Of a stretch of DNA of 64,000 nucleotides, positions 26,950 through 63,400 are shown piece by piece (the stretch's first letter is position 1; every line of letters starts with the position of its first letter). The notes under the pieces were generated by a model. It did not search any database. It saw only the letters and a list, made by a program, of their open reading frames with translations, and was not told where the DNA came from. The stretch is from Sandaracinus amylolyticus (GTDB lineage: Bacteria; Myxococcota_A; Polyangia; Polyangiales; Sandaracinaceae): contig NZ_CP070225.1 in the NCBI RefSeq assembly GCF_021631985.1, forward strand, positions 7,936,001 to 8,000,000, written 5' to 3'. Position numbers and translations under genes: made by a program.

Positions 26950-27960
26950 TCACTCGACCGCGATCACCACCTTGCCGAAGTGCTCGCCGCTCGCGAGGCG
27001 CGCGTACGCATCGCGCGCCTCGCGCCACGGGAACACCCGATCGATCACCGGCTCGATCTTCGCTGCCTCGAGCGCGCGATTCAGCGCCTCGAACATCGCG
27101 ACCGATCCCACGTACACGCCCGCGACGCGCAGCGCCTTGTGGAACACCGCGTGGGTGTCGATCTCGCCGCGCGTCCCCGTGAGCACGCCGATCAGGCTCA
27201 TCGTGCCGCCGTAGCGCAGCGACACCACCGACTGATCGAACGTGCCCGGCCCACCGACCTCGACCGCGACGTCGACGCCGCGCCCGCCGGTGAGCGCCTT
27301 CGCGCGCTCGCCCCACTTCGGCTCGGCGACGTAGTCGATCACGTGGTCGGCGCCGAGCGCCCGCGCGCGCTCGCGCTTCTCCTCGCTCTTCGAGGTCACG
27401 ATCACCTTCGCGCCCGCTGCCTTCGCGAGCTGCAGCGCGAACATCGACACACCGCCGGTGCCCTGCACCAGCACCACGTCACCCGGCGCGACCACGTGCG
27501 TCGTCTCGAAGAGCGCGTGCCACGCCGTCACCGCTGCGCACGGCAACGACGCAGCCTGCACGAACGAGAGGCGCGCCGGGATCGCGACCCACGACGACTC
27601 GTCGAGCACGACCTCCTCGGCGAGCATGCCGTCGCGCCCGCCGCCGAGCGCGTTCGCGTGATGGAAGTCGGAGAGCAGCCCGCTCTGCCACGTCGGGAAG
27701 AACGACGCCGCGACACGATCGCCGACCTTCCATCGCGTCACCTGCGCGCCCACCTCGATCACCTCGCCCGCTCCGTCCGAGAGCGGCACGACCGGCGCTT
27801 TCCGGTTCGTCGCGAGGCGACGGAGGACCAGGTCGCGATAGTTGAGCGAGGTCGCGCGCACCCGCACCCGCACGTCGCGCGCACCGAGCGCGGGCGAGGG
27901 TCGTTCGGTGAGCACCAGCGCGTCGTTCTCGGGGGCGGGACGGAGCTCGTAGGCCTTCAT
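26950..27960 (-). CDS. NAD(P)H:quinone oxidoreductase-like MDR protein
   Basis: 336 residues. Medium-chain dehydrogenase fold: N-terminal GroES-like part with Leu-Asn-Tyr-Arg-Asp and Asp-Gly-Ala-Gly-Glu-Val, then the Rossmann part with Gly-Thr-Gly-Gly-Val-Ser-Met-Phe-Ala-Leu-Gln-Leu-Ala and Ala-Leu-Gly-Ala-Asp-His-Val. The Cys and His zinc ligands of alcohol dehydrogenases are not evident, so a zinc-free quinone/enone reductase is more likely. ATG 27960 has a GAGGAG ribosome-binding site; the frame continues upstream through the divergent promoter but without support. Divergent from the HxlR regulator at 28010, a common arrangement in which the regulator senses electrophiles or quinones and controls the reductase. 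Confidence 0.9.
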   Translation of the reverse strand: MKAYELRPAPENDALVLTERPSPALGARDVRVRVRATSLNYRDLVLRRLATNRKAPVVPLSDGAGEVIEVGAQVTRWKVGDRVAASFFPTWQSGLLSDFHHANALGGGRDGMLAEEVVLDESSWVAIPARLSFVQAASLPCAAVTAWHALFETTHVVAPGDVVLVQGTGGVSMFALQLAKAAGAKVIVTSKSEEKRERARALGADHVIDYVAEPKWGERAKALTGGRGVDVAVEVGGPGTFDQSVVSLRYGGTMSLIGVLTGTRGEIDTHAVFHKALRVAGVYVGSVAMFEALNRALEAAKIEPVIDRVFPWREARDAYARLASGEHFGKVVIAVE

Positions 27961-28009
27961 GATCGTCTTCTCCTCGTAGGACGAAGCGCTCTCTCGTACC
28001 CTGCTTCCG

Positions 28010-28543
28010 ATGTCGCAAGTACGGACAAAGACCGCCGGTACTATCAAGAAGGGAAGTAAGGGCCCGGTCGGAAACAGCGGGATCGCCGAGGGCGCCGATG
28101 CGCCGCGAGGGCAAGGCGCGAGGAGGAGGAATGCTCGAAGCATTCCGACGACGAGCAACGCAGCCATCGCGGACGCAGCGGCGGCCGCAGGCCCCGCTGT
28201 TTCCGACCGGGCCCGTAAGCGCGGCGACGATCAGCGCTCGAACTGCGCGGTCGAGGCCACGCTCGGCGTGATCGGCGGACGCTGGAAGGGCGTCGTCCTC
28301 TTCTGGCTGCTCACGGGCAAGCTCCGGTTCGGCGAGCTGCGCCGCAGGGTCCCGAACTGCTCGGAGCGCATGCTCACGCTGCAGCTCCGCGAGCTCGAGG
28401 AGGACGGGCTCGTCTCGCGCACCGTCTACGCCGAGGTCCCGCCGCGCGTCGAGTACGAGCTCACGACATTCGGGCGCAGCCTCGAGCCGATCCTCCTCGG
28501 CATGCGCGAGTGGGGCGAGCGCTACAAGCGCCGCCTGACGTGA
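28010..28543 (+). CDS. HxlR-family regulator with a 53-residue insertion from a MITE-like element
   Basis: 177 residues. The HxlR winged helix occupies about residues 78-175: [15 protein letters not shown], then Leu-Arg-Phe-Gly-Glu-Leu-Arg-Arg, Leu-Thr-Leu-Gln-Leu-Arg-Glu-Leu-Glu, and a Tyr-Glu-Leu-Thr wing. HxlR/YodB-type repressors often use the N-terminal Cys as an oxidant or quinone sensor, fitting the divergent quinone reductase. Residues 17-69 come from a 155-bp palindromic element plus a 4-bp duplication (159 bp, 53 codons). Removing it gives a normal short N terminus that stays in frame. No other start codon is available between the element and the domain. GTAC half-sites at 27996, 28018 and 28038 may belong to its operator. 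It converges with the AraC gene (9-bp gap). Confidence 0.9.
28018..28042. promoter_or_regulatory. Possible HxlR operator half-sites
   Basis: AGTAC (28018-28022) and GTACT (28038-28042) form an inverted pair 20 bp apart at the very start of the HxlR gene, with a further GTACC at 27996-28000. Spacing of about two helical turns and TAC/GTA half-sites recall YodB/HxlR operators. Weak evidence on its own. Confidence 0.3.
28056..28218. mobile_element. MITE-like palindromic element with target-site duplication
   Basis: The element spans 28060-28214 (155 bp). It has perfect 22-bp terminal inverted repeats at 28060-28081 (begins GGGCCCGGTCGG) and 28193-28214. GTAA flanks it on both sides (28056-28059 and 28215-28218), a likely 4-bp target-site duplication. 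A central hairpin GGAATGCT-CGA-AGCATTCC (28128-28146) is centred on base 28137, exactly the midpoint of the element, and parts of the arms between also pair. No ORF of its own, so it would need a transposase elsewhere. It lies in frame within the HxlR gene. Confidence 0.75.
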
Positions 28544-60497: not shown

Positions 60498-63400
60498 ATG
60501 ACGCGCCTCTCGTGGTCGCTGCTCGTCCTCGCGCTCGTGCTCCCGTCGGCTGCGCACGCGCAAGCGCCGCTCGCGCCGAGCGACGTGCCGGCACCGCTCC
60601 AGCCGTGGATCCCGTGGGCGCTCGACGGGATGGAGACCTACGGCTGCACGTTCATGCCCGATGGCTCGCCGCGCTGCATCTGGCCGGGCGAGCTCGCGCT
60701 CGTGGTCGAGCCGGGCGGCGCGACCTTCGTGCTCAGCGTCTCGCTCGATCACGCGAGCGCGGTGACGCTCCCCGGCGACGAGCGACGCTGGCCGCTCGAC
60801 GTGCGGGTCGACGGACGCGCGGTGCCGGTGCGTCGCGGCGGCGCGCCGCTGGTCGATCTGCCCGCGGGATCGTTCCGCATCGAGGGCCGGTTCACGTGGA
60901 GCGAGCAGCCCGAGACGATCGCGATCCCGTCGGAGGTCGGGCGCATCGCGCTGCGCACGCCCGAGGGTGTCGTCACCCGCCCGCGTCGCGATGCGAGCAC
61001 GCTCTGGCTGCAGACCGCGACCCGCGAGGCCGCGCAGGAGGACACGCTCTCGATCGAGGTGTTCCGGCGGATCGACGACGGCTCGCCGATGCGCATCACC
61101 ACGCGCATCGCGCTCCGGGTCGGCGGTCGTCCCCGCGAGATCGCGCTGGGTCGCGCGCTGCTCGAGGGCGTCGATCCGATCGCGGTCACGTCGAGCGCGC
61201 CGGTGCGCATGAGCGAGGACGGCGAGCTCACGGTGCAGGTGCAGGCGGGCTCGTTCGACGTCGAAGTGGTCGGGGTGCGCGCCTCGCTCGACGCGCCGCT
61301 GCGCGCGATCGCGCGCGCCGAGATCTGGCCCGCCGAGGAGATCTGGGTGTGGAGCGCCGACGAGGCGCTGCGCCAGGTCGAGCTCGCGGGCGCGGATCGC
61401 ATCGATCCCGATCGCACCAACCTGCCCGGCGAGTGGCGCGGGCTGCCGACCTATCTCGCGCCCTCGGGCTCGGCCGAGCTCACGCTGACCACCACCCGCC
61501 GGGGCAACCCCGCGCCGCCGCCGAACCAGGTCTCGCTCTCGCGCGAGCTCTGGCTCGATCCCGACGGCGAGGGCCTCACCGGCATCGACGTGCTCAGCGG
61601 TCAGATGCACCAGCGGTGGCGCCTCGAGCTCGCGCACGGCGAGCTCGGACGCGCGACGGTCGACGGATCGCCGCACCTGATCTCGACGCTCTCCGACGAC
61701 GGTCGCGCCGGCGTGGAGCTCCGCCGTCCGACGATCGACGTGCGCGCCGAGTGGCGCGACGACGGGACCAGCAACGTGTTCTCCGCAGTGGGCTGGGACG
61801 AGGACGTGCAGAGCCTCGTCGCGACGCTGCACCTCGCGCCGGGGTTCCGACTGATCGCGGCGAGCGGCGTCGATCACGCCGCGACCTGGCTCGATCGCTG
61901 GAACCTGTGGGGGCTCTTCTTCGTGCTGGTGATCTCGCTCGCGATCGGAAGGCTCGCCGGGCCGGTCGCGGGCGCGACGTCGCTCGCGGTGCTCGTGCTC
62001 TCGTACCACGCGCCCGATGCGCCGTTCCTGGTGTGGATCCCGCTGGTGATCACGCTCGCGCTCGCGAAGGCGCTGCCGCGCGGATGGATGCGCGAGTCGA
62101 TGCGCTACGCGTTCCACGTCTGCTTCGCGCTGCTCTGCCTGCTCGTCGTGTACTTCGCGGGCTACGAGCTGCGCCGTGGGATCTGGCCCTACGCCGATCC
62201 CGGCGCGCCGGCGTACGAGCTGCGCGAGGAGGAGGAGGTCAGCTCGTTCGACTACCCGACGAGCACCGTCGCGCCCTCGGCACCCGCCGCCGAGCCGATG
62301 ATGGCCGACGACGCCGAGGGCGGGGGCGGACGGCGGAGCTACCGCGGCGGTGAGTCCGACGAGATCGGCGGGCTCTTCGGCAGCAGCGGCGACGTGTCGC
62401 GCAGCCCGAACCTCTGGTCGTACGAGCCCAACGCGGTGCTGCAGACCGGGCCCGGCGTGCCCTCGTGGCAGTCCCGCGGTGGTCAGACGATCACGCTCTC
62501 GTGGGATGGCCCGGTGACCCACGACACCGAGGTGCGGCTCTGGCTCGTCACGCCGCTCGAGAACGGGGTGCTCGCGATCCTCGAGGTCGCGCTCTTCGGG
62601 CTCTTCCTCTACTTCCTCTATCGCGCCCGTCCTCAGCCGCCTCCGCCGAGCGCCGAGGCGAGCGCGCCGGCGCCGATCGCCGCGGCCGCGGTGCTGCTCG
62701 CGATCGTGATCGCGCCCCCGACGATCGTGCGCGCCCAGGACGCATACGAGCCCTCGCCGCAGATGATCGAGCAGCTGCGCACCCGCCTCACCCGCGCGCC
62801 GCGCTGCGCCCCGAATTGCGCGGATCTCGCGGCCGCGACGATCTCGATCGCGGGCGCTCGGCTGGTGATCGATCTCGACGTGCAGGCGAGCGCGCTGTCC
62901 GCAGTGCCGCTGCCCGGACCGCTCGACGCGTGGTCGCCCGCGACCATCACGATCGACGGCGGCGCGACCACTGCCGCGGCGCGGGCCGACGACGGCTATC
63001 TCTACGCGCGCGTGCCCTCGGGCGCGCACCGGGTGCGGCTCGAGGGTGCGCTGCCCTCGAGCGACGCGTTCACGCTCGCGTTCGCCGCGGCGCCCCATCA
63101 CGCGCAGGTGAGCGCGGCGGGCTGGGAGGTCGACGGGCTCTCGGGCGGCGATCGCATCGGCAGCTCGATCCAGCTGCGACGCTCGGTCGGCAGCGAGCCC
63201 GGTGAGGGCGAAGGCGAGAGCGGTGGCGGCGCGTCGATCCGCGTCGTGCCGTGGCTCGCGCTCGAGCGCTCGTTCGCGCTCGGCATCCGCTGGGAGGCGA
63301 CCACCACGGTGCGTCGTACTTCGGCGATCGGCGCGCCGATCGTCGCGCGCATCCCGCTCCTGCCCGGCGAGTCGGTGCTCTCGTCGGATCTCACGGTCGA

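Follow-up and report, generated by a model that had tools for sequence, protein, structure and literature searches.

A palindromic insertion in an HxlR regulator gene of Sandaracinus amylolyticus carries a conserved structured core and is probably a member of a widespread family of MITE-like elements

A palindromic insertion in an HxlR regulator gene

The window, the whole stretch of 64,000 nucleotides of Sandaracinus amylolyticus DNA that was analysed, includes a 177-amino acid ORF (nucleotides 28010 to 28543, + strand) encoding an HxlR-family regulator, with its HxlR domain (Pfam PF01638, E 8.4e-35) at residues 87-175. Adjoining it in divergent orientation is a gene for a zinc-binding alcohol/quinone dehydrogenase-like protein (26950 to 27963, − strand; PF08240 and PF00107), the start of which was placed at 27963 from the Pfam-matched reading and which is the probable target of the regulator. 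Within the regulator ORF two copies of GTAA, at 28056-28059 and 28215-28218, bracket a 155-bp element (28060 to 28214, + strand) that ends in 22-bp terminal inverted repeats (TIRs), the left one at 28060-28081 on the + strand and the right one at 28193-28214 on the − strand, with arms complementary at 22/22 positions. The arm sequence occurs just twice in the window (chance expectation, 0.01), and DNA folding of the element stretch gave -73 kcal/mol as compared to -39.9 ± 3.1 for dinucleotide shuffles (z = -10.8). The same site is empty in a sister species of the genus (G001, locus L099), where the sequence ...AAGGGAAGTAAGCGCGG... includes GTAA once and the flanks are 90-91% identical on both sides. 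Since only a single GTAA is present there, 159 bp were inserted in the genome of the window with duplication of GTAA, and the insertion of the element into the HxlR gene is certain. An earlier note, made from the letters of this DNA, had described a palindromic element with perfect 22-bp TIRs and a GTAA duplication, and the empty site bears this description out.

The 159 bp gained with respect to the G001 site amount to 53 codons, approximately residues 18-70, and are open in that frame; therefore 53 residues are added to the N terminus with no truncation of the protein. The G001 orthologue has 124 amino acids, lacks the 53 residues and carries at Cys26 the equivalent of Cys79 in the window protein. 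It is thus the short regulator with a cysteine near its start that the earlier note had expected upon excision of an in-frame insert, and the orthologue comparison it had suggested came out accordingly. No in-frame ATG, GTG or TTG codon follows 28010 until the GTG at 28268, so that a product translated from the original start must include the inserted residues. In an AlphaFold model made with 10 sequences residues 1-73 are predicted to be disordered, and the wHTH domain is folded with pLDDT values mostly between 82 and 94. The open frame, the predicted disorder of the insert and the modelled folding of the domain are all compatible with a regulator that was altered but not destroyed. The opposing explanation, that the gene was plainly inactivated because the hairpin blocks translation or the long tail spoils the protein, with the open frame being a matter of luck, must be taken seriously, and we place it somewhat short of an even chance. 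The strong predicted hairpin lies 46 nt past the start codon, the gene offers no other in-frame start ahead of the GTG already mentioned, the length of an insert preserves the frame one time in three, and GC-rich DNA keeps most frames open, five of the six in the case of this element. On the other hand, the ORF downstream of the insert is intact and differs from the G001 gene by 11 silent and 3 amino acid-changing codons, and an insert predicted to be disordered next to a domain predicted to fold also argues against inactivation.

The conserved core, its structure and its distribution

Blast searches using the window element as query matched 31 of 97 genomes, its own included. The stronger matches clustered at query positions 51-106, and aligning them yielded a core of about 57 nt at the centre of the element with the consensus GCAAGGCGCGAsGAsGAG-hairpin-GAsGAsGAGCAACGCAG, or in its longer aligned form GCAAGGCGCGAsGAsGAGGAATrCy...rGyATTTCGAsGAsGAGCAACGCAGCC. 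A covariance model built from the aligned core matches, named R1, locates the core of the window element at 28110-28168 on the + strand (82.6 bits), which corresponds to G000:C1:7964110-7964168 in the genome of the window, G000. This structured core, an apical hairpin between repeated tandem GA/GA steps, and not the TIRs, is the unit conserved across many phyla, a point that the earlier note had missed. R1 also has a weak match at 62218-62276 of the window (+ strand; 19.3 bits, E 0.24), possibly a decayed copy or a chance match.

The core is predicted to fold as a long hairpin built by turns of single Watson-Crick pairs and of GA facing GA. At the s positions C/G swaps are complementary in 51/53 and 52/53 distinct cores (Fisher p = 6e-13 and 3e-14, respectively), a result obtained with an alignment-free test on cores collected by a pattern that presumes no pairing. 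An alignment fitted to R1, with 76 distinct rows, gave a covariation score of 0.600 versus 0.218 for shuffles; it has 213 double-change cells and 93% of its cells pair, and the slid controls were all between 0.03 and 0.11. The core pairs covary very strongly across phyla. Because the GA/GA steps are possible on the modelled strand only, the function of the core would be that of one folded strand, either DNA or RNA.

In an order-wide scan with R1 at E ≤ 1e-4, which scored no more than 30 candidates for each genome, 58 of 184 genomes had the core, as did 39 of 84 genera, and many of these genomes have from 12 to at least 30 copies. A plain pattern scan of species genomes identified at least 119 stretches with the core; the matches listed include the gammaproteobacterial genera Lysobacter, Dokdonella, Pseudoxanthomonas and Hydrocarboniphaga as well as Nitrospirae, Binatia, Phycisphaera (Planctomycetes), Gemmatimonadetes/Gemmatimonadota, Acidobacteria, Omnitrophica and Deltaproteobacteria/Myxococcota. 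Several of the genomes bearing the core belong to cultured isolates and others are MAGs, and therefore contamination of bins is not the whole explanation of this distribution. A complete Binatia chromosome (G186) harbors 39 copies. Another complete chromosome (G178; L127, L304-L331) has about 19 copies of a 105-bp palindromic unit with constant GACCGA and GACGGG flanks beside the core, and in six loci (L163, L214, L125, L133, L139 and L140) another conserved motif, an internal loop with GGACCGAG facing CGACGGGAG, lies 20-30 bp from the ends. The plasmids and the viral contigs searched had no core match, and phage records yielded nothing beyond one weak 28-nt match. The core sequence word was found in the literature in unrelated papers only, and a topic search of titles and abstracts, with most subscription journals outside its reach, returned no account of this core; the family that it defines is apparently undescribed so far.

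When three core sites occupied in G001 were compared with their counterparts in G000 (L376, which is G000:C1:185977-186612, L372 and L374), the core was absent from all three in G000, and hence insertions come and go between these sister species. One of the G000 sites retains both ends without the core, and the other two, at which a clean duplication was not seen, have 4-5 different bases where G001 has the element, possibly excision footprints or else the result of insertions accompanied by small deletions. A set of 159 distinct copies with flanking sequence includes 48 open frames that run through a copy, but most of these ORFs have no Pfam support and probably reflect spurious open frames in GC-rich sequence. 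The 29 spanning frames with the longest flanks were scanned for domains, which were found on both sides in only one locus, L194, where a 159-nt core element (L194:2957-3115) lies in frame as codons 691-744 of a 1906-amino acid Pkinase-AAA_16-GAF-HisKA-HATPase protein. The fusion in the window is thus real and not the only one. In-frame fusion nevertheless looks rare and incidental in the core family, a by-product, since element length is variable and most frames stay open in GC-rich DNA.

These data bear on the possibility that the core, besides being mobile, serves as a structured RNA or a cis-regulatory element within mRNAs, for example in their processing or stability. GA/GA steps that form on the modelled strand alone imply a strand-specific function, the core is co-oriented with the upstream gene slightly more often than not (86/144, p = 0.02), and effects on mRNAs are known for ERIC and Correia elements (PMC2229807, PMC10969869). 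We nevertheless regard this explanation as rather unlikely: both orientations of the core are common, the loss or deletion of insertions between sister species does not suggest a benefit to the host, and a search of Rfam 15 with 15 loci at E up to 1 returned no family, the one miRNA match being spurious and below the gathering score. Replication-strand bias of the copies was not significant (25/39, p = 0.11).

Terminal repeats, target duplications and candidate transposases

The core is common to all of these elements, and the TIRs and target duplications that accompany it differ by lineage. The ends have the form C[TA]GTGTGGTGTCCCGCAAATAA in Dokdonella and its relatives, C[TA]GTGTCCTGTCCCAGAAATAA on the Binatia chromosome, T(N)A followed by GGACCCGCCACACAATAACC, or GGGCCCG..., in the order of the window, and T(G)A followed by GAGTTTGTGAATCAATCC in other lineages. 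The target duplications are either TA within CTAG (e.g. L168, L206 and L236) or TNA, which includes TTA, TAA, TCA and TGA; those in genome G018 are TTA, TAA and TCA. Because of the comparison with these other copies, the duplication at the window element may be TAA, of the TNA class, with an extra G at the right end, instead of GTAA, which leaves the length of the insert unchanged. The terminal arms in G018 match each other at 19.2 of 24 positions within a copy versus 15.2 of 24 between copies, with 58 double changes. Such matched changes could possibly be due to selection on the hairpin or to the correction of one arm by the other through template switching.

A candidate for the mobilisation of one of these lineages was found on the Binatia chromosome G186, where a TIR pair (L337) encloses the gene for a 367-amino acid transposase with DDE_3 (PF13358) and HTH domains, an IS630-family transposon in which R1 detected no core. 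Its TIRs match those of the TA-type core copies of the same chromosome, at the right end over most of the first 23 bases and at 21/30 positions over a longer stretch. Likewise, an IS630 element in genome G043 (L359) matches the ends of a core element in G119, another genome of the order of the window, at 23/31 positions. Ends common to IS630 transposons and TA-type core elements suggest that the latter are probably mobilised in trans by IS630 transposases. L337 is a candidate autonomous parent of the TA-type lineage in G186; none was found for the type of the window, no transposase with GGGCCC-type ends having turned up in the genome of the window, the sister species or G018. The window copy does not qualify as an IS630-derived MITE, having a GTAA or TAA and not a TA duplication and a TIR that matches the IS630 ends of its own genome at 9/22 positions. 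A 1.2-kb IS630-family element with CTAG targets and ends GTGTCTCGACCGTGACG occurs in that genome four times or more (L363, L365, L367 and L370). Other potential parents were discarded. An IS5-type parent of TNA-class elements would carry PF13586, which none of the eight genomes searched contains; the unpaired TIR matches in G018 turned out to be core copies in a degenerate state, TIR-like matches that stand alone or short TIR pairs, and no transposon was found among them; and a 3.6-kb TIR pair in G186 (L332) has ordinary genes between unrelated ends.

The earlier note had proposed a search for other copies and for a parent, which was successful in part. Blast detected one full copy and one diverged relative in the genome of the window but no second full-length copy with the window TIR, while R1 found three core copies, i.e. 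the window element and two diverged relatives; a transposase with these TIRs did not turn up. The window element has TIRs and a target-site duplication, is shorter than 500 bp and lacks a transposase gene, and as to copy number, the single full copy and two diverged relatives in its own genome compare with up to at least 30 copies in related ones. Its MITE-like nature is very likely, and we are fairly confident in assigning it, as a MITE-like transposable element that is non-autonomous, to a widespread family with a conserved structured core.

Whether it is an ordinary MITE is another matter. It could be an internally deleted IS that is inserted by its parent IS, with a leftover as its middle part and a core that is found elsewhere by common descent. 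MITEs typically have TIRs, are small and multi-copy and duplicate a short target, as these elements do, and the TIRs of one lineage are shared with an IS630 transposon; but an IS remnant should conserve its TIRs most, and conservation is instead much stronger in the core than in the TIRs, holds over many phyla and comes with strong covariation. In addition, the core occurs with at least two types of duplication, TA and TNA, and the IS630 relative matches approximately the terminal 23 bp only and lacks the core, all of which makes this origin unlikely.

In the explanation that we favour, the whole element is predicted to fold as one long hairpin with the core in the middle. A DDE transposase acting in trans would recognise the TIRs, cut the element out and paste it elsewhere, as the ends shared with IS630 in one TA-type genome suggest, and the core would be an independent module joined to different TIRs in different lineages. 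It most likely has to fold as a single strand to play its part, be it as DNA while transposition or replication takes place or as RNA. The window copy, which is of the TNA class and has GGGCCC ends, inserted once near the start of the HxlR gene, probably after the split of the two species. Going further, we propose, tentatively and as a reading that may well fail, that the core is a selfish fold, conserved as a folded single strand in many phyla, which rides with ends that belong to different DDE transposases, of the IS630 type in the case of TA and another in that of TNA, and keeps the arms of the hairpin matched as their sequence changes.

Relation to known palindromic repeats and significance of the family

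The palindromic elements of Rickettsia (RPE) resemble the window element in being palindromic, about 105-150 bp long and inserted in frame in protein genes with residues that can be tolerated (PMC2229807, PMC10969869), and an enzyme carrying such an insert has been shown to be made and active (PMC2229807). RPE are reported from Rickettsia, often inside genes, whereas the core family spans several phyla and its in-frame cases are rare (the window and L194). The conserved part is here a covarying core and not a conserved peptide, which, going by the published descriptions, sets it apart from RPE.

The ERIC or IRU elements of enterobacteria generate a TA target duplication. Like the core elements, they are imperfect palindromes (about 127 bp) with many chromosomal copies, a central hairpin and some ORF fusions (PMC2229807), and they are reported from Enterobacteriaceae and Vibrionaceae (PMC10969869). 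The best R1 match in one E. coli ERIC locus was not significant (5.2 bits, E 3.8), so that ERIC was discarded as a homologue, and its likeness to the core elements is one of general design only. That match, in L282, is located on the ERIC core, shares its orientation and has a similar AACGCAGC motif at its end, a lead to a very remote relation. The window element belongs to none of the named families with which it was tested.

The RUP elements of pneumococcus, IS630-derived MITEs moved in trans through TIRs shared with IS630 at TA targets (PMC2229807), are comparable to the lineage of L337. No conserved structured core has been reported for RUP, and the window copy differs from them in its GTAA or TAA duplication and in that the searches turned up no IS630 carrying its ends. 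REP sequences and REPINs, which are associated with RAYT, are also chromosomal palindromes mobilised in trans, and core elements likewise had no match in the plasmids searched. REPINs are short, are not known to have TIR-type duplications and depend on Y1 transposases. The core elements differ from them in that duplications and DDE-type ends are seen.

In-frame insertion of a palindrome into a protein is already known from RPE, ERIC and Correia elements, and it is the family that is unusual. Its core is nearly constant across phyla, and the ends, which a transposase would be expected to recognise, vary by lineage and even by copy, with both arms in step. R1 offers a route to annotate many repeats that have so far remained unlabelled. 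Should movement or persistence depend on the core, then a host factor or a common mechanism that reads the folded strand must exist, and if it is indeed a selfish fold, what defines this mobile element would be its internal fold and not its transposase.
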